A stretch of DNA of 64,000 nt from contig NZ_CP030041.1 of the NCBI RefSeq assembly GCF_003260975.1, forward strand, positions 3,705,001 to 3,769,000, read 5' to 3'. Position 1 is the first letter of the stretch; each line of letters starts with the position of its first letter. A program made the position numbers and the translations under genes. The notes under the pieces were generated by a model. It was not told the origin of the DNA. It saw nothing but the letters and a program-made list of their open reading frames with translations, and ran no database searches. Of this stretch, positions 34,801 through 60,179 are shown one piece after another. Origin of the DNA: Echinicola strongylocentroti (GTDB taxonomy: Bacteria; Bacteroidota; Bacteroidia; Cytophagales; Cyclobacteriaceae).

Positions 34801-34910
34801 ACAGACCCGAAAATACCAAAAAGCCCGGCGCCGGTAAGCTGGGTGAAGTCGATGGTCTGTTTTTCCTTGTAAGAATATAATCCTTCAATTTCCAGTTGTA
34901 CAGGAATCAT
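31884..34910 (-). CDS. sbcC: Exonuclease subunit SbcC (SMC-like ATPase)
   Basis: A 1008-residue Rad50-type ATPase that works with SbcD to cut DNA hairpins and blocked double-strand ends. Walker A is GSVGSGKS (35-42). Long coiled coils flank a zinc hook CPLCG, and the C-terminus has the signature LSGGQTFQASLCLALA and Walker B FFFLDEGFGALD. Length matches the family. The start overlaps the sbcD stop by 4 bp, so the two are translated together from one minus-strand operon. Confidence 0.96.
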   Translation of the reverse strand: MIPVQLEIEGLYSYKEKQTIDFTQLTGAGLFGIFGSVGSGKSSILEAVLLALYGTTERLASKGEKNSMVNLQSPGIAIHFEFQAGKNNAKTYKASYIAKRNTKNFDDVKPATHTFYEKTTEGWLPLDEKGEALVGMKMDHFRQTVIIPQGKFREFIEQKPKDRAEMMKELFGLERFDLAGKTKQLLSVEKEKKIKLETQLEGLAAFTKDALQASEGQLHQLTDQKQKETQQLSQKEQQLNSILAVKEKAEQLIQLKKQMEESDRLLPTFQQKRTQLKQYQTALAYVKPLLDQFQELEIDLEKYRVSVTDCERFKTRFEQEIEEKNARYHKLYQDYSHKGEKEARIRDLLQIKELNKLSAEKASLQQNLEQLAQQNSTQQEHKDKWVLQIDQTEKAMEQLDVPDMAQVSKLETALLELRQLEERSALLTGQLKGLAEEIKSTQSAKEQVLQGVGLQEADFTSAIQKTTKLLQQAQKDREHLLQQQGLYVYAHQLKDGEACPLCGALEHPEPLEHHFDEKMLNKTDDSIQQFGQRLEALRAAQSTYEKLLLTLENTQKSHLEKQQEADQVQQRIQYLLKENDAKNGATTIEQQLETAKTALKKEKTLQQQLKSLLADQKAFLAKSEQDLVKYQEADQQVKTLQTKIETKLGEVNFPDLLEKYRTASGHKIDEDIAKVKHYLDDLEVNLPRAQDALNEARQQQTTNLANLKTYQDRLAEVKVKLEKTEESLSLALAQHDFANAATVKDLLAKQLDPAKLEEEIKVFDRQRDIILAKMKELQADEAVAGYDQALFTTIQEEYQTAKSTLEATQKRVALLQKEIEDIHSKLEEKTRLKKEFQQVENRESNLKELYGLFQGSGFVKYVSNIYLKELVQTANIRFMQLSKNSLTLEVDESNTFWVKDHLNGGKKRLLKTLSGGQTFQASLCLALALAEKVKSLNRADQSFFFLDEGFGALDKNALRTVFETLKSLRHEKRIVGIISHVEELQQEIGVYAQVELDPEKGSQVTYSF

Positions 34911-36136
34911 AATGGTTCGTTTTGACTGATGATTTCATTAAAAAGTGCGTTGATTTCCTCATTAGGCTCCACGCCTTTGGCGCTTTGGTAAAAGCGGGAG
35001 AAGAGCATTCCCATGTCCTTTCCCAAGTCTTCGGCCTGCAGACCAGTGTTTTGCAAGGAGAGGTCCCCGGTGAGCCGCGGGATGAGGTTCACAATGCCGT
35101 CGTGGGCTTTCATGATGGTTTTGCGCGTTTCTGCATCGATGGACGTTTCGGTCTCATAGATGATTTCTACAAAGCAGTAAGGGTTGGTTTCCAGCCAAGC
35201 AAGTGTGTCTGCCAAATTGGAAAATGCCTTTTGATACAGCGGCCGCCCTTCCTTCAGGGCGATAGGCTGGTATTGGACAGGTTTGTTGGGTTCGGCTTCT
35301 ACCAACACGACCTTTTTTTCTTGACCAGCTTCGCTAAAACTGTATGCCAGAGGCGAACTGCTGTAAACGACAGGACAGGGGCTGCTGTCCACGGCATGGT
35401 AGCGATGGAGGTGGCCGAGGGCGGCGTACTGGATGCTGTCCGGTATCAAATGGGTGTAAAGTGCCTGGGTGCCGCCAACATGGAGAATAGGGCGTTCACT
35501 TTCGGGTTCTGCTTCTGGTTTTTTACCTTCTTTCATGAAGAAGAAATGCCCCATAAAAAGGTTTACACCAGTATCATCACAGTAATTGTCTGCGAGATTT
35601 TGCCACTTTTTGCCCAAAACCTCCCGTAAAGCAGCCTCTTTGTCCTCTTCTCCAAGGTAGGTTTTTAAAAGGACCTCATTGGCATAGGGTGCTAGGATGA
35701 TGCGAACAGGAAAGTTGTATTGTGGCAATTTCAATTCCACAAACCCCGGAGCAGACCGTGTGATCTGAAGACCGCTGTCCAGTGTCCCGGTGGCGATTTC
35801 CTGATCGTATCTACTGTAAAAAAGAATGCCCAGTTCCCTTGCCAGCGGATCCGGCGCACTGATGAACTGCGTGCTGTCATGGTTGCCGGAAATGGCAATA
35901 ATGGGCCTTTTGCCGTCCTTGGAGAGCCTGCGAAGGGATTTGTACAGCAACTCCACCGCCTCGTGGCTAGGGTTAAAGCTGTCAAAAATGTCTCCTGCCA
36001 GCAATACCAAATCGACTTCCTCACGATCAGCAATGGAGATCATCTCCTCTAATACCAGCTGTTGTTCTGGCAATCTGGAATATTCCTGAAGGCGCTTTCC
36101 TAAATGCCAATCAGCTGAATGTAAGAGTTTTAACAT
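34907..36136 (-). CDS. sbcD: Exonuclease subunit SbcD (Mre11-like nuclease)
   Basis: A 409-residue metallophosphoesterase, the nuclease subunit of SbcCD. The metal-binding motifs appear in order: HSADWHLGKRL (residues 6-16), LAGDIFDSFNP, ISGNHDS, FMGHFFF and LGHLHRYHAV. It is the first gene of the sbcDC operon, divergent from the RlpA-like gene, with about 128 bp between them that must carry both promoters. Confidence 0.96.
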   Translation of the reverse strand: MLKLLHSADWHLGKRLQEYSRLPEQQLVLEEMISIADREEVDLVLLAGDIFDSFNPSHEAVELLYKSLRRLSKDGKRPIIAISGNHDSTQFISAPDPLARELGILFYSRYDQEIATGTLDSGLQITRSAPGFVELKLPQYNFPVRIILAPYANEVLLKTYLGEEDKEAALREVLGKKWQNLADNYCDDTGVNLFMGHFFFMKEGKKPEAEPESERPILHVGGTQALYTHLIPDSIQYAALGHLHRYHAVDSSPCPVVYSSSPLAYSFSEAGQEKKVVLVEAEPNKPVQYQPIALKEGRPLYQKAFSNLADTLAWLETNPYCFVEIIYETETSIDAETRKTIMKAHDGIVNLIPRLTGDLSLQNTGLQAEDLGKDMGMLFSRFYQSAKGVEPNEEINALFNEIISQNEPL

Positions 36137-36264
36137 GTTTTAAAAAGATCCGTTATTCGTTTTAATAGAAAATCAGATTAAATTTAGGGGCTTAAAAATT
36201 GGTAAGCAAACCAAGTTGCGGTTCAAAAGTGCGAAAAGCCCAATATGTTCACTGTTTTTAAAAT

Positions 36265-36822
36265 ATGGCATTTAAATTGAGTAAGCCGATGCTTATGAAG
36301 AAAATAGTGTTTCTGTCCCTGTTATTGAGTGTGTTAGTGGTGGAGGAGCTGTTGGCGCAGTCGCCTGTTTTGGGGGTGGATTCTACATTGGTCATTGAAG
36401 AAGGGATAGCGAGCTATTATGGGAGGTTTTTCCATAACCGGAGGACCGCCAATGGAGAAGTTTTTGATATGGAAGGGATGACCGCTGCCCATAAAAACCT
36501 CCCCTTTGGCACTATGGTACGGGTCACCAACCTGAAAAATGGAAAAGAGATCATTGTCAAAGTAAATGACCGTCTTCCCCAAAACTCCAAACGAAGCATT
36601 GATCTGGCAAAAGGAGCAGCAAGAAAGATAGGGATGATCCAAATGGGCCTAGCACCGGTAGCGATAAGTGTCCTGAAACCAGCAGCGATGGCACGGCTGA
36701 TGGATTATTATGAGGACGATGCGCCTGGCGATTTACGCTTGAGGATGTACTATAAACCCATAGCGGTAGATAAGGATACCACCGTTATTTTCGCCTGGCC
36801 TTTTGACCCTCTAGCTTTTTGA
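36265..36822 (+). CDS. Septal ring lytic transglycosylase RlpA-like protein
   Basis: Secreted double-psi beta-barrel protein of up to 185 residues. The most natural start is the third in-frame ATG (36295), directly before KKIVFLSLLLSVLVV, giving a signal peptide cut near LLAQ. The RlpA core is clear: GIASYYGRFFHNRRTANGE, then DMEGMTAAHKNLPFGT, VRVTNLKNGK and VKVNDRLPQNSKRSIDLAKGA. The catalytic Asp (in VNDRLP) and His (in AAHKNLP) are present. No SPOR domain is attached. It probably cleaves naked peptidoglycan strands or assists at the septum. Confidence 0.9.
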   Translation: MAFKLSKPMLMKKIVFLSLLLSVLVVEELLAQSPVLGVDSTLVIEEGIASYYGRFFHNRRTANGEVFDMEGMTAAHKNLPFGTMVRVTNLKNGKEIIVKVNDRLPQNSKRSIDLAKGAARKIGMIQMGLAPVAISVLKPAAMARLMDYYEDDAPGDLRLRMYYKPIAVDKDTTVIFAWPFDPLAF

Positions 36823-36837
36823 CCCCCTGGCCTTTTT

Positions 36838-37060
36838 ACCCCCTAACCCCCTAAAAGGGGGGATTGTCGTTTGAATAAAGGTGTTTCTTGTCGATATGGC
36901 GGCTCCACCTTCAAACCTTTCGACATTAAAACTTTTCAACTTGTTCTTACCCCCTAGCCCCCTAAAAGGGAGAATAGTTGCCTAGCCAAGGGAGTTTCTT
37001 GTCGATATGGCGGCTCCACTTTCTAACCTTTCTACATTGAAACCTTCCAACCTTTCCCCC
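36838..37060. repeat. Tandem duplication of a 111-bp unit
   Basis: The unit at 36838-36948 is followed by a diverged second copy at 36949-37060. Both start with ACCCCCTA-CCCCCTAAAAGGG and share TTTCTTGTCGATATGGCGGC. The second copy ends at the stop of the bestrophin gene. Non-coding; the CCCCCTAAAAGGGGG core can form a small hairpin. Confidence 0.7.
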
Positions 37061-37974
37061 TACATCACATATTCGTCATTGATGGGGCTGACGGGATCTG
37101 GGATGTGCTCTTCGTGGATCATTTCCAGTAGATTGATTTCGATGGAGCGGGTGATTTGGTCTAGGGGGATTCCGGTGGGGATGGGCTCAAATGGATTTAA
37201 AATGGCTTGGCCGATAAAGTGAATGGTGTGGAAAACATAGCCGATGATGGTGCCAAAAAGAATCGCCCGCCAGCCTACCGTAGGGGCTACTGCCAGTGTA
37301 AAGGCGATGTTGAAAAGCCAAATAAAGGCTTTGGTATAGTAATTATAAGAGGTGGGAAAGACGGTGTTTTTGATCCGCTCTGCCTTGCCCATCTCATCAC
37401 AAAACCGGGTGATTTCCCTGTTGAGTTCCAAGAATTCAAAGCCATCGATAAGCTGTTCTTTTCGCCAGGTCTTGAGTTCCATGGTTTGTAGGCTGAGGAT
37501 GGCATTGTGTTTATTGCTTTCGTTTTCGATAATATCGATGTCGCTTTGAATGAGGTACTTTTTGTACTCACTATCATCGGTACCGCGTAGTTTTTCTTTT
37601 AGGGCATAGAGAAAGGCGATGTGTCGTTTGATGGCATATTCCTTTAGTAATTCCAAGTGTTGTCCTTTGATACGGGCATTGGCAGTGGGGAAGTGGAGGA
37701 TGTGTCTGGCCCATGTACGGGAGCTATTGACCAGGGCACCCCATATTTTTCGTGCCTCCCACCAGCGGTCATAGGACTGATTATTATTAAAACCTATAAA
37801 AAAGGCCAAGGCTGTCCCTAGGATAGTGGGGATGATGGAGGGCATTTCGAAGTGGTATTGGATAAAGTACCAATAGAAAAAGTAAGCCATCGAACAAGTC
37901 ACCGCCACAAAGATCGTATTTTTCCAAGTACCTTTTATGATTCTGCTTAATCGGATGTCATGGGTAATGATCAT
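37060..37974 (-). CDS. Bestrophin family ion channel
   Basis: A 304-residue inner-membrane protein of the bestrophin/UPF0187 family, pentameric anion or cation channels. The N-terminal helix has TCSMAYFFYWYF. The family core is ALAFFIGFNNNQSYDRWWEARKIWGALVNSSRTWAR, with further hydrophobic segments near AFIWLFNIAFTLAVAP. Bacterial members conduct Na+ or Cl- and may take part in osmotic balance. Single minus-strand gene. Confidence 0.92.
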   Translation of the reverse strand: MIITHDIRLSRIIKGTWKNTIFVAVTCSMAYFFYWYFIQYHFEMPSIIPTILGTALAFFIGFNNNQSYDRWWEARKIWGALVNSSRTWARHILHFPTANARIKGQHLELLKEYAIKRHIAFLYALKEKLRGTDDSEYKKYLIQSDIDIIENESNKHNAILSLQTMELKTWRKEQLIDGFEFLELNREITRFCDEMGKAERIKNTVFPTSYNYYTKAFIWLFNIAFTLAVAPTVGWRAILFGTIIGYVFHTIHFIGQAILNPFEPIPTGIPLDQITRSIEINLLEMIHEEHIPDPVSPINDEYVM

Positions 37975-38202
37975 GATAAAAATCTCTTTTGTAATATAAA
38001 CAATTTACGAAAAAGTTGATGGAAAGAAAGGGAGGCGAATGGGGTAAGGGCGGATTCAGTGGGTAGTAAACGGGGAATAATGGAGTGGCCAGTATGATTT
38101 TTCTTTCATTTAGTAAGTATTCCTGTTATGAAATATTTCTTTATTTATATATAAAATTGCGTTTAATTTCTATTAAATGAACTTTTATGATTGTTTTGTT
38201 GA

Positions 38203-38224
38203 AAATACCCAAAGTTGGGTATTT
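38203..38224. promoter_or_regulatory. 22-bp palindromic operator-like site upstream of LytTR gene
   Basis: AAATACCCAA (38203-38212) and its perfect complement TTGGGTATTT (38215-38224) are separated by AG. It lies about 60 bp before the LytTR start and looks like a binding site for a dimeric regulator. Confidence 0.6.
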
Positions 38225-38284
38225 ACTATTATCGTTTTATTTTTTTTCTTGTAGTGAAATCGGTCTACTTCAAAACTAAAAAGC

Positions 38285-38632
38285 ATGAAATATCTTTTCT
38301 TGAAAAATGAAACAGAGGCAGCCAATATCCCTATGGATACGATCCTTTCACTTGAGGTAAAGGACTATTATTTGTCCTGTCACACCGTTTGTGGCCGTGA
38401 TTTTAGCTGTAGTAGGGTACTAAATGAAATAGAGGGAGAGCTGCCCGCTCACTTTGTACGGATCAATAGGAATACCATCGTGAACTTGCGAAAGGTACAA
38501 TTGGTCAATTTTAAGGAAAGAACCGTTTATATGAACGAAAATTTGGCCTATCAGATGGCGATAAGGAGAATGAAGACGATACGAAATGCAATCAATGAAT
38601 ATGAATCAGATAGACACGATTTTGGCAGATAA
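38285..38632 (+). CDS. LytTR-only DNA-binding transcriptional regulator
   Basis: A 115-residue protein made almost only of a LytTR domain (ILSLEVKDYYLSCHTVCG, then LNEIEGELPAHFVRINRNTIVNLRKV). No receiver domain or membrane segment, so it may act without a phosphorylation partner. The sulfotransferase gene starts inside its 3' end (47-bp overlap). It stands at the head of the peptide cluster that follows, and LytTR-only proteins in Bacteroidota often control such loci; this role is inferred. Confidence 0.88.
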   Translation: MKYLFLKNETEAANIPMDTILSLEVKDYYLSCHTVCGRDFSCSRVLNEIEGELPAHFVRINRNTIVNLRKVQLVNFKERTVYMNENLAYQMAIRRMKTIRNAINEYESDRHDFGR

Positions 38633-39521
38633 GCAATTCCTCCCGGAGGATGGTTTGGTAATTTTCGGGGAAGCCAGAAGTGGAAGCACTTGGCTAATGG
38701 AGCTCCTCGGTCATATCCCCGGTTCCATTATCAATTGGGAACCGCTACATGAGGAAAGGGGAGTAGTTCCTGTCAGTTTGAATTGGGGAGACCGGCCTTA
38801 TATTCCCATTGAAGATAAGCATGCAGAATATGTGGACTGTATCATGGATATGTTGTCCCTCAGAAAGTATTCCGAGTGGACGATTGGCAAGAATTCCATA
38901 GAAGACTTAGTAAGTGGAAAAATGGTTCTGACCAAATTTGTCAGGGCCAACTTGCTGCTCCCTTGGATGTGCCAACACGTCAAGTTCAAGCATAAACCTG
39001 TGTTACTGGTGAGGCATCCTATAGATACCAGTCTTTCCCAGCTTAGGGCGTTTGGAAGCGGAGTCAATGATTATGGTGAAATTCCGTCGGGTATTAACAA
39101 TGCCCGCTTCACAAACCATAGAAAAATGATGCAAGAAGCTCAAAATGATTTGGAGTATAAGATTACCCTATGGTGCATCAATAATATGCCGGTTTTGGAA
39201 AACCCAAGTTTAAGGGATTGGGTGGAAGTGGTCTTTTATGAAGATTTGATCATCGATCCCCGAAAACAACTCCGTTCGATTTTAGGACGGATCATTCCCT
39301 ATGAACATATTTCGGAAGTAATGTCACACATTCCTTTAAGGGCTCCCAGCGAGACGAATTTGCAGGGACGACTGGAAAACAGTCCTATAAAGCAACTTTA
39401 CAAAAATATTGATGTCATTGATTATAGCCAAAAGGAGCGGATTCAAAACATTTTTGACCATTTTGGATTAAAGCTGTACAATGCTTTTGGGCCTTTTAGG
39501 TTATGTAGTAAATCTTTGTGA
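38586..39521 (+). CDS. Sulfotransferase family protein
   Basis: Up to 311 residues; starts at 38586, 38595 or 38601 are all possible, all within the LytTR gene. The PAPS 5'-phosphosulfate loop is GEARSGSTWLMELL and the 3'-phosphate region LLVRHPIDTSLSQLRAF, both characteristic of cytosolic-type sulfotransferases. No signal peptide. The donor is presumably PAPS; the acceptor is unknown. Being coupled to a regulator and next to Cys-rich peptide genes and glycosyltransferases, it may sulfate a peptide or its sugar decoration. Confidence 0.85.
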   Translation: MQSMNMNQIDTILADKQFLPEDGLVIFGEARSGSTWLMELLGHIPGSIINWEPLHEERGVVPVSLNWGDRPYIPIEDKHAEYVDCIMDMLSLRKYSEWTIGKNSIEDLVSGKMVLTKFVRANLLLPWMCQHVKFKHKPVLLVRHPIDTSLSQLRAFGSGVNDYGEIPSGINNARFTNHRKMMQEAQNDLEYKITLWCINNMPVLENPSLRDWVEVVFYEDLIIDPRKQLRSILGRIIPYEHISEVMSHIPLRAPSETNLQGRLENSPIKQLYKNIDVIDYSQKERIQNIFDHFGLKLYNAFGPFRLCSKSL

Positions 39522-39645
39522 TTTAATCCGTCCCCTGAACGGAGTCGAAGGGGACGGATTAGTGGCATAACAGAGAGGAACCTACCAATGTTTATCATTT
39601 TGTAAACGCACGGGGTTGGTTTAAATTTTAATCTGAGATCTCAAC

Positions 39646-39760
39646 ACTTGCGGGTCGACACACTACGTTCACGAGTTGTAATGATACACTTTCCCTTTGG
39701 TATTGATATATTGTATAGGTTAAAGCTGTTAATCAATTCTTTAACCAAAACCAATTTAAA
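39646..39760 (+). promoter_or_regulatory. Promoter repeat of peptide cassette 1
   Basis: About 100 bp nearly identical to 41940-42040. Both include CACTACGTTCACGAGTT, CACTTTCCCTTTGGTATTG and GTATAGGTTAAAGCTGTTAA, and both run into the peptide start. TTTG at 39696-39699 and TAGGTTAA at 39716-39723 could be the promoter elements. Confidence 0.55.
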
Positions 39761-40009
39761 ATGAAAAAGAAAAGAGTATTACCAAGAGTAGTAATGGCTG
39801 CGAGTGTAGCTGCGATGGGAGTAGGTGTTTTTCAGACTTTTGATGCGGAGGCGATGACTACAGGGGCGGGGTATTATATGGAACCTGATTGGTGTGGAGC
39901 CTATTATCCAGGATGTATGGAGCTTGTAATAAAGTGTAGACCATCGGGCTACGATCCTTGCGATGCTGGACAGCAGGTGCCTTGTGGTGAGGTGTGCGAG
40001 ATGCCTTGA
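39761..40009 (+). CDS. Cys-rich secreted peptide precursor 1 (NVEALA-like)
   Basis: An 82-residue precursor. Residues 1-31 form a basic, hydrophobic export leader (MKKKRVLPRVVMAASVAAMG and onward) ending in AEA, a plausible signal peptidase I site. The remaining about 50 residues contain six cysteines (45, 52, 59, 67, 75, 79), consistent with three disulfides or other crosslinks. The leader matches the precursor at 42041 in 33 of 35 positions, while the mature parts are unrelated. Bacteroidota NVEALA peptides share this layout and also neighbour beta-propeller lipoproteins. Whether the product is modified is unknown. Confidence 0.75.
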   Translation: MKKKRVLPRVVMAASVAAMGVGVFQTFDAEAMTTGAGYYMEPDWCGAYYPGCMELVIKCRPSGYDPCDAGQQVPCGEVCEMP

Positions 40010-40087
40010 AAAGTTTAAAGAAAAGGTTGTTCCTTAGGTATAGGGTCAACTAATTTTAGTAAAAAAATATGAAGTTGACTTAAACTT

Positions 40088-41274
40088 ATGAGAGCAACCT
40101 TTAAAGTCTTAGGCGATAAAACATTATATAGATGTATTTGGATTTTTCCCTTGTTGGTCTTACTCACGTTTTGCAATGGCAAGAATAAACCTTCCAATGA
40201 TCATATTTTAGAATCATCGATTAATTTCTCAAATAATGAAATTTCCTCGATTAGCAAAATTGTATCTAGCATTGAATACTTTGTTTTGCCTTCTAATAGT
40301 TCTATATCTTTTGTGGATAAGGCTATTAGAACTAAAGGTTTCTATGTTTTAGGAGATTTTGATTTATCAAAATCACTTACAGTTTTAAATGAAAAATTAG
40401 AATTAGTAGGTAATATTCAAAATTACGGTGAAGGACCATCTGAATATCAACATATTCAAGACTTTACGATCAATAGAGAGGAGAATACCGTTGATGTTTT
40501 ATCAATAAATAAATTAGGTTTAATTTTAATGGAGAATTTCTAGAAGAAATTAAACTCCCGTATTTATTTTATAAAATTCAACATATAGAAAACTCAAAAT
40601 ATATAGCGTTTACTCCAAATGGAATGAAGTCTGGTTTAAATAGACAAAATAGTTCCAGTTGTTTTACAATTTGGGATATAAAAAATGGTGAAACTGTAAA
40701 TGTAAATTCTCCCATTGAAAAGTTAAAGATTGGTCATGCGAGAGAAAGGAACAATTTGACATACCAAAATGGAGACCTTTTGTTTTCAATAAATTTTTTA
40801 GATACAATTTATACTTTAAATACCTGTGGTGATGTGAAATCGAAAAGATTCTTTAAGAGCGAAATTCCAAGTTTACCACTGGAATATGTAGAATCAACAA
40901 ATTCAATGTTGCATTACCTGAATAACTCTGAAATCAGGACTAAATATTTTTATCATCAAGCTAATTTACTTGAGGATGAAAGTTATTTTATGACAAGAGT
41001 TGTTAAAAACGGAAAATTCACCAACTTACTTTATTCTAAGAATAGTGGAAAAAGTGTTCTTTTTTCGCAATTTGAAAATGATATCGATTTTGGATTAAAA
41101 TGGATAAATCCTTTGATATTGGATGAAGAAACTTTAATAACTGTTACAGAACCAATGGAATTAATTTCTCAATTTGAAGAAGGTTCTCCGGTGGATTCTG
41201 AATTTTATAAAGTAACAAAGAATTTAACTATTGATTCTCCCCTGATTTTAATTAAATATCATCTAAATTTTTAG
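40088..41274 (+). pseudogene. 6-bladed beta-propeller lipoprotein, frameshifted
   Basis: Two open segments (40088-40543 and about 40519-41274) are in different frames. The first has a signal (WIFPLLVLLTFC) and propeller strands such as GNIQNYGEGPSEYQHIQDFTI. The second continues in frame 1 upstream of its first ATG with NFNGEFLEEIKLPY, which is the expected next blade. The shift lies near 40515-40525 in an AT-rich stretch. The gene is strikingly AT-rich. It is the propeller of peptide cassette 1, but is not a close copy of the propeller in cassette 2. Confidence 0.7.
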
Positions 41275-41435
41275 ATGGTTGTATAGCAAGGGGTGGGTTA
41301 ACTATGTTTTGTCGTTGAAATGAGTTTTCAATTTCGCTTGAAGTGAAAAGAGAGGGCCCCATGAACGGAGCTCGCAGGTTATTACATCATTAACTTTACG
41401 TTAGACGTATAATTCATATTTCCTACTCATTTTTG

Positions 41436-41936
41436 GAGTAGTTACTGGGACAGGTAAATGCCGCTACACAGCTGGATTATGGAAACGGATTGGCGGGAAT
41501 CGGTAGCGTTATCAATTACCTGTATCAGAAGGGATTATTGGAAGAAAGCCCCTTTGAACTTTTTTCGGAGCCGGAGGATACGTTGATAAAGGTGCTTTTT
41601 GGGGTCAGGTGCCATGAAATCACCCTTTCGGAGGGATTGCCCGGGATTGGGATATATTTTCTGTTCCGCCTTAGGGAAACCGGTTTGCGGGGGGATTCCT
41701 TTCAGGCCATGCGGTATAGGGAAGCGATCATCGCCACCATAGACCAGCTGAATGATTTCCTTAAGCGAATGCCCCGGGAAAAACTCGCTCAATATGACCT
41801 GAGTATCTGTCATGGCTGGAGTGGGGTTTACCTGTACTTGCTGCAAGTGGAACGATTGGGATATGTAAAGGAGAAAATTACCAAACTGGTCCATCGGATA
41901 CAGATGATGATTGGTAAATTAACGTTCACGAGTTGA
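41436..41936 (+). pseudogene. LanC-like protein fragment (decayed copy of 43405-44487)
   Basis: Closely matches the middle of the LanC-like protein downstream: YGNGLAGIGSVINYL, EESPFELFSEPEDTL, SEGLPGIGIYFLFRL and CHGWSGVYLYLLQ. About 50 N-terminal residues are missing, an in-frame TAG sits near the break (41438 region), and the C-terminal half is lost where the sequence jumps into the ACGTTCACGAGTT promoter repeat. This is the remnant third gene of cassette 1. Confidence 0.8.
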
Positions 41937-41939
41937 AAC

Positions 41940-42040
41940 ACTACGTTCACGAGTTATACCGGTACACTTTCCCTTTGGTATTGATATATTGTATAGGTTA
42001 AAGCTGTTAATCAATTCTTTAACCAAAAAACAATGTTGAC
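41940..42040 (+). promoter_or_regulatory. Promoter repeat of peptide cassette 2
   Basis: Second copy of 39646-39760. An extra ACGTTCACGAGTT (41923-41935) directly before it marks the joint with the truncated LanC-like fragment. Confidence 0.55.
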
Positions 42041-42268
42041 ATGAAAAAGAAAAGAAGATTACCAAGAGTAGTGATGGCAGCGAGTGTAGCTGCCATGGGC
42101 GTGGGTGTTTTTCAGACTATTGATGCGGAGGCGATGACTACAGGATCGGGCGCAATGTGTTGCGCTTTTGATGGAGATGGTTGTGTCGATGATTTTGGGT
42201 TTTTTTATCCAGAAGATGTAATGGTTGCTAGGGAATTCCCTGGAGACACCTGTACTAATCATCAGTAG
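42041..42268 (+). CDS. Cys-rich secreted peptide precursor 2 (NVEALA-like)
   Basis: A 75-residue precursor whose leader is nearly identical to that at 39761 (differences at positions 6 and 27). After AEA the core has four cysteines (40, 41, 48, 71) and acidic stretches (DGDGCVDD). The core is unrelated to precursor 1, a pattern of conserved leader with variable product. A strong hairpin follows the stop codon. Intact propeller and LanC-like genes follow. Confidence 0.75.
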   Translation: MKKKRRLPRVVMAASVAAMGVGVFQTIDAEAMTTGSGAMCCAFDGDGCVDDFGFFYPEDVMVAREFPGDTCTNHQ

Positions 42269-42270
42269 GA

Positions 42271-42301
42271 TATATTGGAGCGATGTAATTCGCTCCAATA
42301 T
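42271..42301 (+). other. Hairpin between precursor 2 and the propeller gene
   Basis: ATATTGGAGCG (42271-42281) pairs perfectly with CGCTCCAATAT (42291-42301) around a 9-base loop. There is no strong T-run. It could trim or stabilise the precursor mRNA so that peptide is made in excess over the downstream proteins. Confidence 0.6.
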
Positions 42302-42325
42302 TATATTCAATTAAATGAAATATAA

Positions 42326-43408
42326 ATGAAAGTAGCCAAGCTTAGCTTTAGTTTAATTGTCCTCTTAATGTTATTTGTTTCATGTTCGTATAATAAGGAT
42401 AGATTTCATAAGGTGTTTTCTTTTGAGTCAATATCAGAAATAAAATCCCTGGAAGGGGTTAAACATGAATTTGTTGAGCTGATAAACCCAAAAAAAATCG
42501 AACTAAAAAATAAATTTCTGATAATAGGAGAAAGTAGAAGAATTGACGATTACAATTTTCCTATACACATTATTGATAAAGTAAAAATGAAGTACCTTTC
42601 AGGAAAAGGGAAAATAGGGTTTGGACCTGGTGAAATATCAGATGCTTATGGAATAGGTGTAAGTGGGAAAGACAGTATGTTGTGGGTGTATTCAGCTCTT
42701 GAAAAGCGATTTTCTAAGTTTAATATTTATGACCAAGAGCAACTTTCAAAATATCAGATAAAGCAGGATGAAAACTTTTTTATGGCAACAGCCATGGCTT
42801 GGAGTTCAGATAGTTCTGTGGTGTGTCGGATGGCCAATGATCCAAAAAAATTTGTTGAGTTTAAAATAGATGGGACAAGGTTAGCGGGCTATGGACTTTG
42901 GCAGAATTTAGAAGTTGGTGAGGAACTTAACGATTTTAATATGGGGCAACTAAATCATGGGTGGTTCAAAGGAAATAGAGAAAAGAATATTTATGTTAAC
43001 GCTGGCTATAATCGGGATCATATTGAAATTCTGCATAAAAGGAAAGGAGAAATTTACACTATAGATGGTCCAAGAAATGAGATTCCTAAATATAAGTTTG
43101 TTTCTGGAGGAAAAGGAAGATTAAATCGCCTAATAATAGATGAAGATAACCCAAAAGCCTACCGAGATGTGTGTATTGGGGATGAATATATATATGGTTT
43201 ATATTCTGGATACACTAGAAAGGAAATATTGCGGGAAGGTAAATATGCCAATGATATCTTTGTTTTTAATTATCAGGGAGATATTATAGATCATTACAAA
43301 ATTGACATTTCTTTAAGTGCTTTTACTGTGGATGATAAATCAGGGAAAATATATGGAATCACTGCGGATGAAAATCCAGGAATTGCTGTTTTTAATGTGC
43401 CTGATTGA
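42326..43408 (+). CDS. BF3164-like / TolB-like 6-bladed beta-propeller lipoprotein
   Basis: A 360-residue lipoprotein with lipobox LFVSC (Cys about 20). Propeller motifs include KGKIGFGPGEISDAYGIG, ALEKRFSKFNIYD and DDKSGKIYGITADENPGIAVF. The minus-strand protein at 56638-57732 ends with the same pattern, so both belong to one family. It overlaps the LanC-like gene by 4 bp, indicating coupled translation. In Bacteroidota such propellers accompany NVEALA-type peptides; they may bind or handle the peptide at the envelope. Confidence 0.82.
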   Translation: MKVAKLSFSLIVLLMLFVSCSYNKDRFHKVFSFESISEIKSLEGVKHEFVELINPKKIELKNKFLIIGESRRIDDYNFPIHIIDKVKMKYLSGKGKIGFGPGEISDAYGIGVSGKDSMLWVYSALEKRFSKFNIYDQEQLSKYQIKQDENFFMATAMAWSSDSSVVCRMANDPKKFVEFKIDGTRLAGYGLWQNLEVGEELNDFNMGQLNHGWFKGNREKNIYVNAGYNRDHIEILHKRKGEIYTIDGPRNEIPKYKFVSGGKGRLNRLIIDEDNPKAYRDVCIGDEYIYGLYSGYTRKEILREGKYANDIFVFNYQGDIIDHYKIDISLSAFTVDDKSGKIYGITADENPGIAVFNVPD

Positions 43409-44487
43409 TCCTGATTTGTATGATAGACTATCTCCATTTAAACACTTCCTTTTCGGACAATCTAGGTCTAATAAATGGCAAAAGCGCTTCCATCCTATAT
43501 TTCTCAAGCTTGGAAGATCCGTTTTATGCCGAAGATATTGCTTATTCTTTTTTAGAGGAGTTGCTCGGACAAGTAAACGTAGCTTCATTGCTTGATTACG
43601 GAAACGGGTTTGCGGGAATTGGCAGCCTTATCAATTACCTGCATCAGAAGGAATTGCTGGAAGAAAGCCCCTTTGAACTTTTTTCGGAGCCGGAGGATAC
43701 GTTGATAAAGGTGCTTTTTGGGGCCAGGTGCCATGAAATCACCCTTTCGGAGGGATTGCCCGGGATTGGGATGTATTTTCTGTTTCGCCTTAGGGACAGC
43801 GGTTTGCCGGAGGATTCCTTTCAGGCCATGCGGTATAAGGAAGCGATCATCGCTACGATTGACCAGCTGAATCATTTGCTTAAGCGAATGCCTCAGGAAA
43901 AATTAGCTGAATATGACCTGAGCATTTGGCATGGCTGGTCTGGGGTTTACCTGTACTTGCTGCAAGCGAAACGATTGGGATATGTAAAAGAGAAGATAGC
44001 TGAGTTAACGCTGCAGGTCAGGAAAATTATGGTTGGAATGTTGGGTACAGCAAAGGTAAGCTGGATGCACTTGGAAGCTTGGTTTACGCTTTTCCAAGAC
44101 CCAGATACCTGGCAAAATGAAGTAATGGCGGACAGGCTGGAGCAGTACCTACAACAAATTAAAAGTGAGCCTGTTGATTTTTATAATGCCGCTTTTTACG
44201 CCTTGTTATTGAGGTTATTGGGGGAAGCCACTGGGGCAGCGTCCGCATCCGACCAGTTAGAAAACTTCGTCAGAAAAAAGCTGGACGAAATACCGCTCAG
44301 TCGCCTGTTTTCCGCAGATCCACGGACAGGCGCGATTCCTATGGGATTGGACAGAGGACTGGTGGGGACAGCACTTCCTTTGCACAGCTTGGAAACGGGA
44401 AATTGGGAGTGGTTGGAGCTGTTGGGAATTGGAGAAATGCAATATGAAAAATTGGGAAAGAAAAGTGTAATGAAAAATTTTGAATAA
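43405..44487 (+). CDS. LanC-like protein lacking zinc ligands
   Basis: Up to 360 residues; the start at 43420 (MIDYLHLNTS) is more likely than 43405. The repeated Gly motifs of the lanthionine cyclase barrel are visible: GLINGKSASILYF, GNGFAGIGSLINYL, EGLPGIGMYFLF, HGWSGVYLYLL and GLDRGLVGTALPLH. From the 43420 start only one cysteine remains (in RCHE), so the Cys-Cys-His zinc site of true LanC cyclases is absent. No lanthipeptide dehydratase is encoded in the window. A binding or chaperone-like role in peptide maturation is more likely than lanthionine formation. Confidence 0.75.
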   Translation: MILICMIDYLHLNTSFSDNLGLINGKSASILYFSSLEDPFYAEDIAYSFLEELLGQVNVASLLDYGNGFAGIGSLINYLHQKELLEESPFELFSEPEDTLIKVLFGARCHEITLSEGLPGIGMYFLFRLRDSGLPEDSFQAMRYKEAIIATIDQLNHLLKRMPQEKLAEYDLSIWHGWSGVYLYLLQAKRLGYVKEKIAELTLQVRKIMVGMLGTAKVSWMHLEAWFTLFQDPDTWQNEVMADRLEQYLQQIKSEPVDFYNAAFYALLLRLLGEATGAASASDQLENFVRKKLDEIPLSRLFSADPRTGAIPMGLDRGLVGTALPLHSLETGNWEWLELLGIGEMQYEKLGKKSVMKNFE

Positions 44488-44606
44488 GGAATGGAGAATT
44501 ACTTTGGCTGTGCCTGATTCCTGTTCTTTGTAGAAGGATGTAATTGGGAACTCCCGATAGTGGGGTGGGAAACCTCTTATTAAACAAAAAGAAATGTGAA
44601 AATAAA

Positions 44607-45395
44607 ATGAGCACCTTCAAAAAGACACCTTTAAAAGACGTCAGTTTTTTGATACCTGTTAGGATCGACCATACCGACAGGCTGACTAATCTGGAAGTGA
44701 TCATTGCTTACCTAAGTAAATACTTCGACACATCGGTATGGATATGGGAAAATGATGTGGAGCCGAAAGTTCCGGACTGGATCAGAAAAACCACCAATTA
44801 TCATTTTGAACCTTCCAAAGGGGACTTGTTTCGGAGGACAAGGATTAATAACCGCCTGATCAAGGCATGTGATACTCCGATAGCGGTGCTTTATGATACG
44901 GATGTTATTATCCCGCCACAGCAGCTTATAGCGTCGGTGGAAATGATCCGTCAGCATAGGGCGGGTTTCGCCTTGCCCTATGATGGGCGGTTTGTACAGG
45001 TGGACCGTTATCACCGGAAACTTTTTTCAAGATTGCTCGAACCACGTATGTTAACGGACAGTTTGACGGCTTTTGCAGTGGATACTTACCTGTCAGTGGG
45101 AGGTTGTTTTGTATTTGATCGTGAAGTGTACCGTAGGTGTGGCATGGAAAACGAAGGAATAGAGGGTTGGGGGCATGATGATGCAGAACGGGTAAAACGC
45201 TTAGAAAAGTTGGGGTACAGCATCTTTCGACCCGAAGGTCCTCTTTTCCACCTATGGCATGAGAGGACGGTCAATTCTTGGTTTTATGATGAAGTACGGG
45301 CTATCAGGAGCTGTAGGGCTTACTTGGAAACCTGTAAGGCAGATAGGGGGGCGCTGGAAAGGAGTATCAGCCTGTGGAGATGGAGGGGAGAATAA
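44607..45395 (+). CDS. Glycosyltransferase, GT-A fold with galactosyltransferase-like C-terminus
   Basis: About 262 residues from the chosen start MSTFKKT (upstream in-frame residues look like spacer). The GT-A domain has VSFLIPVRIDHTDRL and the metal-binding DxD in VLYDTDVII. The C-terminal part EGWGHDDAERVKRLEKLGYS resembles the Glyco_transf_7C region of galactosyl- and GalNAc-transferases. Cytoplasmic, no membrane helix. With the next gene it forms a glycosyltransferase pair that could decorate the peptide or an associated glycan. Confidence 0.85.
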   Translation: MSTFKKTPLKDVSFLIPVRIDHTDRLTNLEVIIAYLSKYFDTSVWIWENDVEPKVPDWIRKTTNYHFEPSKGDLFRRTRINNRLIKACDTPIAVLYDTDVIIPPQQLIASVEMIRQHRAGFALPYDGRFVQVDRYHRKLFSRLLEPRMLTDSLTAFAVDTYLSVGGCFVFDREVYRRCGMENEGIEGWGHDDAERVKRLEKLGYSIFRPEGPLFHLWHERTVNSWFYDEVRAIRSCRAYLETCKADRGALERSISLWRWRGE

Positions 45396-45507
45396 AAAAA
45401 TGTAAAATGATGAATTAAGAATGATAAATGGCTGGAATCAATGACGCTTTCGAGTGAGTCCCATTTCAACAGGCAAACGATTCGACAGTTCTACAAAAGC
45501 AACACCC

Positions 45508-46806
45508 ATGAACAACAATTCACCCATCAATCTTATCCTTTTGTATTGCGGACAACGAACCGGGAATTTTGGAGCAGGCTCACATATTGGAAGCCTTTTG
45601 CCTTTTATTAAGAAGGAAAGTAATATTCGTTTTATGGTGATACAGACGGATGACAAGGAGGCCGAAAAGGTGGGAATGGAAAAGATCGATGGGGTGGATG
45701 TGCTCCGTATTCCCCAGCCGGAAAACAAACTCTTTCTGGCCAGTACGCAGGATCCTATTTTTAAAATTTATGCCAAAAGGTTGGTAGAGATCATTTATCC
45801 TTATGTCAGGGGTATAGAAAACCCAATCTTTTGGGTGAACTCTATCGATTACCTCAACGTGTGCTTTGAACTGAAGGAACACTTGGATTGTCAGCTGCTT
45901 TATGTTCACCATGCCTGGAGCTGGAAGATCCATTATAATGTCAGCGATGAGGAGTTTATGGAAGTTTACCGAAAGAATGAATGTACGGATGCATCTACGG
46001 CCATAGAATTTACCCGGTATCAGCAGTCCATAGCCATGCTGGCGGATCAGGTGGTGACCGTAACCGATCAGGCCAAGGGCTTTTTTACTCGATATTTGGG
46101 TGTTCCTATGGGAAAGGTAAGCACCATTTATAATGGCATTGATATGAACGCTAATTCCGATAAGGTGGATAAATGCTTTATTCGTAAAAGGCTGGGGATA
46201 GCTGAAGGTGAAAAGATCATTCTCTATACAGGAAGAATCAAAGCGGACAAAGGGCTTGGTTATTTGTTAGAAGCCTTTAAGAAAGTGTTGGAAGAAGCGC
46301 CTAACTGTAGGTTGGTATTGGTCGGTAAAGGGGATTTTGAGGAGTTTATACCATTGGCCTATCCGCATTCCACCAAGGTGACCTTTACGGGCAAGCTACC
46401 GAAGGAAGCAGTCTATGATTGGTACCGGATAGCCGATGTGGGCATTTTGCCTTCCTTGCATGAACAGTGCAGCTATACGGCCATTGAGATGCGTTTTTTC
46501 CAAGTTCCCATTATTGTCAGTAGTGTGGACGGGCTAGAGGATATGTTTCGAGATGAATACGATGCGCTAAAATTGAAGGTCAACTATAAAGAGAATGGTG
46601 AAAGGACATTGGATACGAATGATATTGCTTCCAATATTTTGCGGATTCTTTCAGACCAAAATCTAGCAAAGAAACTTGCCGAAAATGGTTTAAGTGAAGC
46701 AAAGGAAAAGTTTACTGGGGAAAGAATGTGGAAAGGGTATTTCGATCTTTTGAGGGATATGAATCAAAAAGAGGGATTATTTCAAAGGGGGCAGGAGGGC
46801 TACTGA
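45508..46806 (+). CDS. GT4-type glycosyltransferase (TIGR04157-like)
   Basis: About 432 residues from MNNNSPINLIL. GT-B fold: the N-terminal acceptor domain starts with LILLYCGQRTGNFGAGSHIG, and the C-terminal donor domain has ILYTGRIKADKGLGYLLEAF and the ExxE-like PSLHEQCSYTAIEM. The N-terminal pattern resembles TIGR04157 glycosyltransferases, which occur in Bacteroidota peptide natural-product loci; this match is from memory and not computed. The last gene before the efflux operon. Confidence 0.85.
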   Translation: MNNNSPINLILLYCGQRTGNFGAGSHIGSLLPFIKKESNIRFMVIQTDDKEAEKVGMEKIDGVDVLRIPQPENKLFLASTQDPIFKIYAKRLVEIIYPYVRGIENPIFWVNSIDYLNVCFELKEHLDCQLLYVHHAWSWKIHYNVSDEEFMEVYRKNECTDASTAIEFTRYQQSIAMLADQVVTVTDQAKGFFTRYLGVPMGKVSTIYNGIDMNANSDKVDKCFIRKRLGIAEGEKIILYTGRIKADKGLGYLLEAFKKVLEEAPNCRLVLVGKGDFEEFIPLAYPHSTKVTFTGKLPKEAVYDWYRIADVGILPSLHEQCSYTAIEMRFFQVPIIVSSVDGLEDMFRDEYDALKLKVNYKENGERTLDTNDIASNILRILSDQNLAKKLAENGLSEAKEKFTGERMWKGYFDLLRDMNQKEGLFQRGQEGY

Positions 46807-46951
46807 AGATAGAAAATTTAATTTAATTTTTGTTTAATATAGGTAAATAGGACTTAAAGTCAATCGCTCTCCTCTAAAAGTCACCAAACTCCCTTTGCTT
46901 TTAATTAAATAATTAGTTAATTGAAGAAGTCAACATTTTATTATCTTTTCC

Positions 46952-48025
46952 ATGAATGCAAACAGCCTGTTTTTATTGCTGATTTTACCGTTTCTTTTTT
47001 CCTGTGAAAACAATACGGAGCAACAAGAGGAAATCCCCCTCGAATCCATGCGCAATGAAGTGTCCGCCACCAAGGTGACGGTGGCCAATGCCGAGAAGCG
47101 CTCTTTTGACTACCTGGTCAATGCCTCGGGGAAGGTGGAGGCAGGCCAGCAGGTAATGGTGGTCATCGAGCGGCAGGGTTACCTCAAGGAGCTGGACGTC
47201 CAGGAAGGCCAGTATGTGGAGGCCGGGACGGTCATCGCCCGTCTGGACAATACTGACAATGTTTTCAGAAAGGAAAAGGCCCTGGTGCAGCTGAAAAATG
47301 CGCAGGCATCCTATAACAGCGAAAAACTGGGATTTGGCTCCATTCTGGAAGGGGAAGACCAAGATCATGTCCTCCAGTTGGACGAGCAGCTAAAGGCCAG
47401 CAGCGGCCTGTTGTCCGCAGAGATCGAACTGAAGGAAGCGGAGCTGGAGCTGGCCAAAGCCACCATCAAGGCGCCCATCTCCGGCAAGGTGGCCGACCTG
47501 CAGTTGAAGCCCGGCAGTCTGGTCAATGGAGGCGATGAGCTCTGCGAAGTGCTCAACATCCACAACCTGTTGCTCAGTGTAAAAGTACTCGAATCCGACA
47601 TTCCCTTTATTTCCCTCGGCCAGACGGCGGAGGTCTATCCCGTTTCTGCCGGCACTGGATCGTTGACGGGCAAGGTAAACAGCATCAATCCCAAGGTGGA
47701 CGAAAACGGCTTGGTGGAAGTGGGCATCAAACTGGGCAATTCCCAAAAACTGCTCCCCGGCATGAACGCCCGTGCGGTGATCCGCGCCCCGCAGTCGGAC
47801 AATGTGGTGGTGCCCAAGCAGGCACTGGTCTACCGCTCCGGCCGCCCGGTGGTCTTCACCGTGAACGGCAAGGAGGCCAAGTGGAACTATGTGGAGGTGG
47901 GCAAGGACAATGGCCGTGAGATAGAGGTCCTTGACGGCATCAAAGATGGAGAGACGGTCATCACGAGCAACAACCTGCAGCTGGGGCACCAGGCACAGAT
48001 CCAAATCTCAAAAGAAAACGAATAG
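46952..48025 (+). CDS. RND efflux periplasmic adaptor (membrane fusion protein)
   Basis: A 357-residue lipoprotein (lipobox LFSC, Cys about 18) linking an inner-membrane RND pump to an outer-membrane channel. It has a split barrel-sandwich (lipoyl) domain (ASGKVEAGQQVMVVIERQGYLKELDVQEGQYVEAGTVIARL and IKAPISGKVADLQLKPGSLV), a short helical hairpin, and a C-terminal beta-barrel and membrane-proximal domain (VVVPKQALVYRSGRPVVFTV). The pump gene starts 2 bp after its stop. The operon is clearly GC-richer than the peptide cluster before it. No TolC-type gene lies in the window. Confidence 0.93.
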   Translation: MNANSLFLLLILPFLFSCENNTEQQEEIPLESMRNEVSATKVTVANAEKRSFDYLVNASGKVEAGQQVMVVIERQGYLKELDVQEGQYVEAGTVIARLDNTDNVFRKEKALVQLKNAQASYNSEKLGFGSILEGEDQDHVLQLDEQLKASSGLLSAEIELKEAELELAKATIKAPISGKVADLQLKPGSLVNGGDELCEVLNIHNLLLSVKVLESDIPFISLGQTAEVYPVSAGTGSLTGKVNSINPKVDENGLVEVGIKLGNSQKLLPGMNARAVIRAPQSDNVVVPKQALVYRSGRPVVFTVNGKEAKWNYVEVGKDNGREIEVLDGIKDGETVITSNNLQLGHQAQIQISKENE

Positions 48026-48027
48026 CG

Positions 48028-51000
48028 ATGGTCAGATTTTTATTGGCGCGGCCGATTGCGGTGACCATGGTCTTTGTGGCCCTGATGGTGTTCAGCCTGA
48101 TCGCCTTCACCAAGCTTCCGGTCTCGCTGCTTCCGCCCATCGACGTACCGCAGATCGTGGTGAAGGCGAATTATCCCAATGCCTCCCCCGAGGCGATCGA
48201 GCAGAACGTGCTGCGCCCGGTACGGGAAAGCCTGATCACGCTGAACGGCCTTGAGGACATGCAGAGCAAGGCCGGTAGCGAAACGGGCACGGTGAGGCTG
48301 CAGTTTGCCTACGGCACTTCCATGGAGCTGGCCTATATCGAAGTGAACGAAAAGATCGACCGATTGACCAACAGCCTTCCCGAAGAGCTCTCCCGTCCCC
48401 AGGTCATCCGCATCAATACCAACGACATTCCCATGGTCCGCATCCAAGTGGTGCCCAAGGAAGGTACCGACTATGCAGAGGTGACCAAGTTGGCCGAAAA
48501 TGTGCTCAAAAAACGCATCGAACAGCTGGAAGGAATTTCCCTAGTGGACATCAACGGCAAGCAGGAACGGGTGATCACCGTGCGTCCGGACAAGGCCGTG
48601 CTGGCAGGACTGGGCATGGCCGAGCAGGACGTAATCAATGCCATCACCTCGGGCAACCGGGAACTTCCCGGCATCAGTGTGAAGGACGGCCAGTACCGCT
48701 ATTTCTTGCGGCTGGCCACACGCGTGGATACGCCAGGGGACATCGAAAATCTTCCGGTCAGTGGTCCAGAAGGCCGCGCGGTGCCGCTGGGCAAAGTGGC
48801 CGAGGTGCAGTACCGGATGGAGGAGACGATGGGATATCACCTGTATGGGCAGCGGCAGGGGCTGGTGATTACCGTCCACAAGCAGGCGGCGGCCAAGATG
48901 AACGAACTCATGGAAAAGGTCGGGGAATCTGTGGGCCATTTCAGGCAGGATTATCCGCAGGTGGATTTTGCCATGACCCAGGACCAGAGCACCCTGCTCA
49001 ACGCGGGCATCAGCAACCTGCAGACCAGCCTGCTCTTCGGAGGGCTCTTTGCCTTTGGGGTGCTGTTTATCTTTATGGGCAACTACCGCATGCCGGTGAT
49101 CATTGGTCTGAGCCTGCCCACATCGCTGGTGATCAGTTTTTTGGTCTTCCAGGCAGCGGGCATCTCTATCAACGTCATCTCGCTGAGTGGCCTGGCCCTT
49201 GGGCTGGGCATGCTGATCGACAATGCCATCATCGTCTTGGACAATATCACCCGTAAGCGCCAAGAGGGACTGCCGCTGTTCGAGGCCTGCGTGCAGGGGG
49301 TAAACGAGGTGATGTCCGCACTGATCAGTTCGGTACTGACCACCTTGGCGGTCTTTGTGCCGCTGGTATTCCTGAGCGGGATTTCCGGAGCCCTGTTCCT
49401 TGACCAGGCGGTATCGGTGGCGGCGATCCTGTTTGTTTCGCTGTTGGTGGCCTTTGTGCTGCTGCCACTGCTGTACCGAGTGTTCTTTTCCCATAAAACC
49501 TGGGAGAGCAACCGCGAGGACAGCCGTTTTTTCAAGGCCATAGTAGCTTGGTACAAAAAAGGCTATCAACGGGTGATGGCCAATAGGAAGCTGAGTTTGG
49601 CGCTGCTCCTGATGCTGATTCCGGTGTTTTTGCTTATTGGAATGGCCCTGCCCACGGAGGGACTTCCGCCCATTGCCAAAAAGGATGCCGTGCTGGAGGT
49701 GGACTGGAACGAGCCCATCGGCGTGGCGCAGAACCGGGACCGTATAAAGGAGGTGATGGCCAGCCTTCAAGGGGAATTTGAACACGCAGAAGCGGATGTT
49801 GGTGTGCGGCAGTTTTTGCTCTTTGACGGGGAGAATTCTGTGCAGCAGGCCACGGTGTACATGGATTTTAAGGACCAGCAGTCCAAAGAGAGGCAGACCG
49901 TCCAGTTGGAAAAAATGCTGGGGAATACCTTTCCGCAAGCCACTGTGGAGATCACTGATGCTCCGAATGCCTTTGACCAATTGTTTGCCTCGGATATCCC
50001 CTATTACGAAATGCGCTGGAAGGAGCTGGAAAGCAAGCGGCCTGTCCCCGCTGCCGAGATGGGGCCTTGGCTGGAGGAGCTGCCTGTGACTAATTGGAAA
50101 AAAGGGCCCGGGCTGCAGGAAGAATCAGCAGTGCTCTTCCGGGTGGATCTGGAGAAACTGGCCCTTTACGGGATCGACATCGGTGCGCTGACAGGTGAGA
50201 TCGAAAGGCTCTTTGGCCGCTACACCATCGATGAGATAAGGCGCTTCAGCGAAGTGACGCCGATCCGGCTGGAGGGCAACAAATCGGATTTTATGGCCAT
50301 CCTCCGCAGCAACCACTTGGAAGGCAAGGAAGACCAGCGCTATGCGCTGGCCAACTTTATCAACGTAAGCTATGAAGACCATTATAAATATGTCACGGCG
50401 GACAAGACGGGCATCTACCAATCGGTAAGCCTGACAGGCGCCCATCCCGAGGAACGGGAAGGTGACCTGAAAGAGTGGGGCCGTGGAAAGAATTTCAGTG
50501 TGTCCTTTGCAGGGCAATATTTTAAGGACCGGGAAAATATCCGGCAGCTGATGGGGATTTTGGGCGTGGCGGTGTTGCTGCTGTACTTTATTTTGGCCGC
50601 ACAGTTTGAGAGTTTCGTGCAGCCGCTGATCGTGATCTTTACCTTGCCCTTGGGCATTGGCGGAGCCCTGTTGATGCTCTGGCTGACGGGCACCTCGCTG
50701 AATGTGATGTCCGCCATTGGTCTGGTGGTCATGCTGGGCATCATGGTCAATGACGCCATCCTGAAGATCGATACCGTCAACCGACTGCGGGAGCGCTATG
50801 CCTTGGAGCATACCGGGGAGACAAGCAGGGAAATTCTCGATCGGGCACTGTTCCGAGCAGGGGAAATTCGCCTGAAGCCCATCCTGATGACCTCGATCAC
50901 CACCATTCTGGCGCTGTTGCCGGTGGTGTTCAGCGCCGGATTGGGAGCAGACCTGCAGCGGCCCCTGGTCTTCAGCGTCATCGGTGGCCTGACCATCGGC

Positions 51001-51240: not shown

Positions 51241-51242
51241 AG

Positions 51243-51934: not shown

Positions 51935-51940
51935 TACAAT

Positions 51941-51986: not shown

Positions 51987-52001
51987 ATCTCAAGACTATA
52001 A

Positions 52002-60165: not shown

Positions 60166-60179
60166 ATTTTTATGTGTAT

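Follow-up and report, generated by a model that had tools for sequence, protein, structure and literature searches.

What is made by a locus that sets a LytTR regulator and a sulfotransferase before two short Cys-rich peptides, propeller genes, LanC-like genes and two glycosyltransferases? The question is raised by a 64,000-nucleotide stretch of Echinicola strongylocentroti DNA (contig NZ_CP030041.1, positions 3,705,001 to 3,769,000; the whole stretch is here called the window), in which these genes lie at 38285-46806, all on the plus strand, in a genome of 6.25 Mb. An earlier note, made from the sequence, had read them as a secreted peptide system with sulfation and/or glycosylation. We propose, at a probability of about 0.5, that the locus is a polymorphic peptide/partner cassette system resembling those of ribosomally synthesised and post-translationally modified peptides (RiPPs), in which pairs of core and partner are exchangeable, the leader stays constant and the tailoring enzymes are shared. 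For this speak the co-occurrence of the genes across genera, the contrast between leader and core, the covariation of core and partner, promoter repeats with a 21-bp period, adenosine 5'-phosphosulfate (APS) kinases, and the pairing of a LanC-like protein lacking zinc motifs with a GT7-type glycosyltransferase.

A profile of the peptides matched 51 protein clusters among 5.8 billion proteins. When leader and core were compared in 48 of these (the 3 clusters with cores under 30 residues were omitted), median pairwise identity was 70% for the leader and 21% for the core, with 15% for shuffled cores, and leader identity exceeded core identity in 1112 of 1128 pairs; the peptides thus have the conserved leader and variable core by which RiPP precursors are recognised. 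By eye the leaders resemble Sec signals ending in AxA-like residues, and their residues are conserved across genera as far as Pedobacter. Four Cys are found in 26 of the 51 cores and six in 7, while Tyr is present in 45 of 51, including 8 of the 9 Echinicola cores. The earlier assignment of both precursors to the NVEALA type failed, since neither matches any Pfam model up to an E value of 10, the one of that family (which we take to be PF14055) included, or any NCBIfam model up to 1.

Each peptide gene is followed by a gene for a partner lipoprotein, and here the core behaves quite differently from the leader. In Mantel tests on 20 cassettes, core and partner were correlated with r 0.85 (p 1e-4), or 0.84 when partialled on the leader, against 0.20 for leader and partner. 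The core-partner correlation was 0.73 in 17 less redundant cassettes, 0.87 in 16 cassettes with a PF15869 partner, 0.69 in 12 diverse ones (leader -0.02), and 0.90 (p 0.001) in the 7 Echinicola cassettes (leader 0.04). Omitted from the 20 were cassette 1 of the window, whose propeller is broken, those of L015b (12241), G010 and L120 (L and G numbers denote loci and genomes), the second of the adjacent Lunatimonas peptides (L080, L082), and the broken or shortened L085 cassettes. Cores of the peptide-1 type have a PF17170 partner in 12 of 15 loci, the other 3 partners giving no Pfam match, and this pairing is also found in L079 (Cyclobacterium) and in the window. The partner is of PF15869 for peptide-2-type cores and of DUF4221 for one core type found in E. 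soli and in E. salinicaeni; all three partner families occur under one leader type. The rule from core to partner family is not exclusive, as L119 and L120 have other cores yet PF17170 partners. Core and partner sequences thus covary, and the leader takes no part in this.

The genes and promoter sites of the locus are as follows.

38285-38632, plus strand: LytTR-only DNA-binding regulator of 115 amino acids (aa), no receiver domain (PF04397 7.5e-14, residues 14-103).
38586-39521, plus strand: sulfotransferase (PF13469 30.6 bits, cut-off 27; PF00685 22.8 bits, cut-off 22).
39644-39677, plus strand: peptide-1 promoter, by eye, with an intact half-site at 39665-39677 and a degenerate one (9/13) 21 bp before it.
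39761-40009, plus strand: precursor peptide 1, 82 aa, with a 31-aa leader and a core with 6 Cys and 5 Tyr.
40088-41274, plus strand: propeller 1, frameshifted near 40541 into open reading frames (ORFs) 40088-40543 and 40624-41274, both pieces matching PF17170.
41418-41936, plus strand: LanC-like remnant, residues 45-214, with one in-frame TAG, 80% identical to the intact copy.
41922-41955, plus strand: peptide-2 promoter, in which the 13-bp half-site ACGTTCACGAGTT occurs twice without a mismatch at a distance of 21 bp, 119 bp ahead of the start codon.
42041-42268, plus strand: precursor peptide 2, 75 aa, with a 31-aa leader and a core with 4 Cys.
42326-43408, plus strand: propeller 2, intact, lipoprotein-type signal by eye (PF15869 51.1 bits, cut-off 29.2).
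43405-44487, plus strand: zinc-less LanC-like protein, ATG at 43420 (PF05147 26.4 bits, cut-off 23.2).
44607-45395, plus strand: GT-A glycosyltransferase with a GT7-type domain (PF02709 27.9 bits).
45508-46806, plus strand: GT4 glycosyltransferase, a relative of TIGR04157 (PF00534 90.1 bits).

Most of the gene content given in the earlier note was borne out: the regulator, the sulfotransferase, both short exported peptides and both glycosyltransferases are intact, with Pfam matches for the enzymes and the regulator, and the sulfotransferase search that it called for returned two models above cut-off. Both propellers are real and belong to two different families, PF17170 and PF15869, but the first is broken. 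Likewise, one LanC-like gene is intact and above cut-off, while the other is only a remnant with its TAG, so that cassette 1 retains only its peptide intact. The near-identical promoter repeat noticed at the head of each cassette was recovered as 100 bp at 93% identity, followed by 124 bp at 88% covering the 5' end of the peptide gene. Membership of the GT4 enzyme in TIGR04157 had to be given up, because this model, although the best, scores 281.2 bits against a curated cut-off of 400. The ORFs of the LytTR regulator and sulfotransferase overlap by 47 bp; the start used in relatives of the sulfotransferase is the ATG at 38595, and its RSG..W and R143...S151 stretches, presumably the motifs that bind 3'-phosphoadenosine 5'-phosphosulfate (PAPS), are unchanged across 5 Echinicola. 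In the GT7-type enzyme, D99 and GWG..D are unchanged in 13 relatives, and its predicted model has a pLDDT of 90.3. The peptide 1 core type is also found in propeller-linked peptides of other genera, and that of peptide 2 recurs in E. soli, E. marina and Cyclobacterium.

The peptide-2 promoter repeat is perfect (13/13 at 21 bp, reached by 0 of 200 shuffles), and its 34-bp pattern, with up to 3 mismatches, has this single match in its own genome, with none for the reversed-pattern control. When 10 sequences were scanned for ACGYTCACGRGTT with up to 3 substitutions allowed in each copy, 8 pairs came out within spacings of 19-24 bp, every one at exactly 21. De novo, 9 of 27 upstream regions, belonging to Echinicola and Lunatimonas or relatives, have a repeat of at least 11/13 at exactly 21 bp, reached by at most 6 of 200 shuffles. 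The peptide-1 repeat was not recovered by the pattern scan or the genome-wide scan, and the L016 promoter has a different repeat at 20 bp (0 of 200 shuffles). No LytTR gene was seen in the L078 and L120 neighbourhoods, while L081 and L084 have one, yet no 21-bp repeat. In PMC6193735, LytTR sites are given as nine-bp repeats with a 12-bp gap, an architecture that the 21-bp promoter repeats share.

The earlier note had proposed a LanC-like helper acting without a dehydratase, and this part stands. In Pfam scans of the cluster proteins, to which this search was confined, no dehydratase domain was found. The LanC-like protein of the window has a predicted LanC fold, but zinc ligand motifs (WC.G or CHG) are lacking as well: 0 of 18 rows of LanC-like proteins (that of the window among them) have one, compared with 12 of the 16 LanC ORFs used as control. 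A search for GT7-type relatives in one genome per GTDB species gave 40 loci, in Bacteroidota and Balneolaceae, of which contexts were read for the 14 good ones (L125 and L080 are from the same genome), and the 26 weaker matches (L133-L158) were left out. A LanC-like gene adjoins GT7 in 12 of these 14; it is a weak 118-residue piece in L128, the L119 locus ends at a contig end, and in L122 none lies within the 11 kb examined. Five more LanC-like loci, retrieved at an E value no higher than 1e-30, adjoin GT7 without exception, and in the two of these that were checked the preceding gene encodes an HlyD exporter part. The pair occurs in two contexts. One has signal-type leader peptides and a propeller (L120 of Pedobacter sp. 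Hv1, Lunatimonas, and L119 minus the LanC part); the other has C39 peptidases, on full ATP-binding cassette (ABC) exporters in L122, L123, L129 and L131 and as a separate ORF in L127, with double-glycine peptides seen by eye in several loci. L129 and L132 each have a sulfotransferase domain next to the pair, and in L122 one lies next to GT7, together with an APS kinase. In L123 (Pedobacter polysacchareus, 3134-11775) a lanthipeptide dehydratase and a zinc-motif LanC stand beside the zinc-less pair and a C39 exporter. Taken together, this suggests that the zinc-less LanC-like protein and the GT7-type enzyme form a peptide-glycosylation module. In the Alistipes locus L130 (8979-18091), two such pairs are accompanied by several double-glycine peptides.

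Would the combination dissolve in other genomes, as the refutation test set in the earlier note envisaged? It does not: the set of a leader-type peptide with its partner lipoprotein, a LanC-like protein and a glycosyltransferase is met again in Cyclobacterium, in Lunatimonas, in a further genus of the Cyclobacteriaceae and in Pedobacter. With E values up to 0.1, peptide 1 found matches in 51 of the 295 genomes of the family, many of them via the core part only. The Cyclobacterium locus (L079) has two peptide-partner cassettes, a DUF3405 protein, LanC-like, GT7, an FkbM methyltransferase and GT4 pieces, then a LytTR gene overlapping a sulfotransferase and a third cassette. In Lunatimonas (L080), peptide, propeller, DUF3405, LanC-like, GT7, FkbM, GT4 pieces and LytTR are found, and no sulfotransferase in the neighbourhood; in the other Cyclobacteriaceae genus (L078), peptide, propeller, LanC-like and a GT4 at 46% identity are found, and no GT7, LytTR or sulfotransferase in the neighbourhood. 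The sulfotransferases of Echinicola and Cyclobacterium show no BLAST match at 1e-2, yet both directly follow LytTR, which suggests that they were recruited independently to this position.

Within Echinicola, a sulfotransferase of the window type is intact in 5 of 11 genomes and decayed, together with the peptide, in one more (G004). In all 5, i.e. the window's and four others, the LytTR gene precedes it, and leader-type peptides with their partner genes lie downstream of this head. APS kinases make PAPS, and one (PF01583) follows the glycosyltransferase genes in E. marina; the window genome has one elsewhere. LanC-like genes are truncated in E. soli and E. salinicaeni. Of the E. soli peptide genes, three are found 142-146 bp downstream of N-terminal LanC-like pieces, each of which ends at codon 51; an IS21-like element (by eye) sits between one peptide and its partner, and the L015 peptide genes at 12241 and 14514 begin with ATA instead of ATG. 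As separate observations, L015 also has, at 16906-19842, a second LytTR gene (46%) followed by another peptide type, with the same 21-bp repeats in promoters at 17465 and 19495, a hint that LytTR regulators of one family may act on more than one leader type, and L016 has, at 12235-18787, a second peptide type with a long leader ending in ELGNQAYA and a partner, beside an O-antigen-ligase-like protein (PF04932).

We infer the following mechanism. Judged by the architecture of the sites, the LytTR regulator would turn on the peptide promoters through the paired repeats 21 bp apart. Each cassette would supply a near-constant signal-type leader, a hypervariable Cys-rich core and a core-matched partner lipoprotein, mostly a beta-propeller, and the constant leader could be the handle for shared tailoring enzymes. 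The sulfotransferase would probably sulfate the peptide, at Tyr or at an attached sugar. Wherever the LanC/GT module is retained, sugars would probably be added to the peptide by the GT7-type and GT4 transferases; the zinc-less LanC-fold protein would have no catalytic role and would assist the GT7-type enzyme as the partner that presents the peptide. Once exported and freed of its leader, the peptide, which may be a signal or a toxin, would encounter the partner lipoprotein of its own cassette, acting as a receptor or as an immunity protein, and new cassettes may arise by recombination over promoter/leader and LanC-like sequence. The fullest form of this proposal, in which variable cores and their cognate partners are swapped into a constant set of leader, promoter and tailoring enzymes to yield sulfated or glycosylated signals or toxins that differ between strains and each have a lipoprotein receptor or immunity protein of their own, and a retired lanthionine cyclase serves as the substrate-presenting subunit of a peptide glycosyltransferase, is tentative, and we would give it only about one chance in three.

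Several points weigh against the cassette proposal. The number of Cys is odd in 17 of 51 cores, and one Echinicola core has no Tyr. Since core and partner are adjacent, linkage alone could yield part of their correlation; the leader, however, also adjoins the core, on its other side, yet is uncoupled from the partner. The window cluster shows no dedicated exporter that we could identify, and no peptidase-type ABC exporter was seen among the ORFs of 34000-52000 by annotation and eye. No significant 21-bp repeat was found in 18 of 27 promoters, including those of peptide 1, L078, L081, L084, L119 and L120. The LanC-like, GT7 and GT4 genes are all intact at the locus in 2 of the 5 Echinicola with the LytTR-sulfotransferase head (the window genome and E. 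marina). G010 lacks both LytTR and the sulfotransferase but keeps its peptide and partner intact, its promoter retaining by eye one of the two half-sites, which weighs against a strict need for sulfation. Moreover, sulfotransferase relatives of about 30% identity in other genera sit outside such loci and many adjoin glycosyltransferase-like genes, so glycans are possible acceptors.

This last point leads to the strongest alternative, in which the sulfotransferase and glycosyltransferases act on a surface or extracellular glycan and the peptide-partner pairs form an independent secreted unit in the same neighbourhood. The genes beside those relatives fit it, as do the many peptide-propeller pairs with no tailoring gene in the 3-kb loci examined and a fold comparison in which the GT7-type enzyme ties with polysaccharide synthases. 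The occurrence of LanC-like and GT7 genes in C39-exporter clusters with double-glycine peptides speaks for a peptide substrate instead, and different sulfotransferases hold the same position after LytTR; we would expect the glycan account to be right in roughly one case out of four. Somewhat less probable is that the locus yields simple disulfide-bonded bacteriocins or signals, which Sec exports unmodified, beside tailoring genes that are decaying relics, with the leader kept solely as homology for recombination. Remnants are indeed many (LanC-like pieces, the frameshifted propeller, and the LanC-like genes cut short in E. soli and in E. salinicaeni), and promoter and leader DNA is near-identical between cassettes of one genome, but the sulfotransferase is intact in 5 Echinicola genomes and leader residues are kept as far away as Pedobacter. 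A true lanthipeptide locus, whose LanC-like protein cyclises residues dehydrated by a dehydratase encoded elsewhere, is very improbable: the predicted LanC fold and the dehydratase and zinc-motif LanC of L123 recall such a system, but the zinc-motif count (0/18 versus 12/16) and the lack of a dehydratase domain among the cluster proteins oppose it.

Around the cluster, RND (resistance-nodulation-division) efflux genes follow at 46952-55124, by eye a membrane-fusion protein, an RND pump and another RND-like gene. An ORF resembling a transposase of the REP (repetitive extragenic palindromic) type (51177-51800) is found between the two pumps; the palindrome GTGCCGGGTCTCTGCCCCGGCAC flanks it in identical copies at 51179 and 51872. 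Further propeller-like lipoprotein genes occupy 55298-59116, with no obvious small peptide adjoining, and one of these (56638-57732, minus strand) is 25% identical to propeller 2. At 59507-61572 a tandem pair of genes encodes paralogous secreted proteins, each about 200 aa long.

How does the Echinicola locus relate to known systems? In NVEALA-type systems of Bacteroidota, a short exported peptide directly precedes a propeller lipoprotein, and the present cassettes share this order; unlike them, the Echinicola peptides do not match the NVEALA models, and LytTR, sulfotransferase, LanC-like and glycosyltransferase genes are added. We know of no described role for the propeller-associated small peptides of Bacteroidota. 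RiPP-type clusters of Bacteroidales with zinc-less LanC-like proteins have already been published (PMC10352776); they share the LanC-like protein without dehydratase or zinc motif and have glycosyltransferases in some cases and C39 exporters in most. Unlike them, the Echinicola locus has no radical SAM enzyme, a signal-type instead of a double-glycine leader, core-matched partner lipoproteins, LytTR and a sulfotransferase, and the words 'sulfotransferase', 'propeller' and 'LytTR' do not occur in the main text of that paper. As in RaxX-RaxST of Xanthomonas (PMC6637879), a small peptide with a core Tyr lies beside a sulfotransferase, but in Echinicola no RaxAB-type exporter was seen at the locus, the core is Cys-rich, there are several variable cassettes with LanC-like and glycosyltransferase genes, and sulfation is only predicted. 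Streptococcal LytTR regulatory systems (PMC6193735) also have a stand-alone LytTR and direct repeats with a 21-bp period, but the neighbour of LytTR there is an inhibitory membrane protein and here a sulfotransferase. Class I lanthipeptide clusters of Bacteroidetes (PMC7268733) share a LanC-fold protein, secreted peptides and double-glycine/C39 relatives, and differ by the dehydratase and zinc motif that are lacking in Echinicola. Literature searches found no description of this combination of genes. New here are the near-constant leaders with hypervariable cores, the core-partner covariation, the 21-bp repeats at several of the peptide promoters and a LanC fold without the zinc-site motif.

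The LanC-like/GT7 pair, present in two export contexts and spread over about a dozen lineages among Bacteroidota and Balneolaceae, would, as a peptide-glycosylation module, account for LanC-like genes without dehydratases. Should the peptide be the substrate of the sulfotransferase, the locus would represent a sulfopeptide system in bacteria other than Xanthomonas. The covariation of core and partner points to a concrete candidate binding partner for each peptide, and an arrangement in which each peptide and its partner lipoprotein are passed on as a unit could help bacteria to recognise or to compete with one another.

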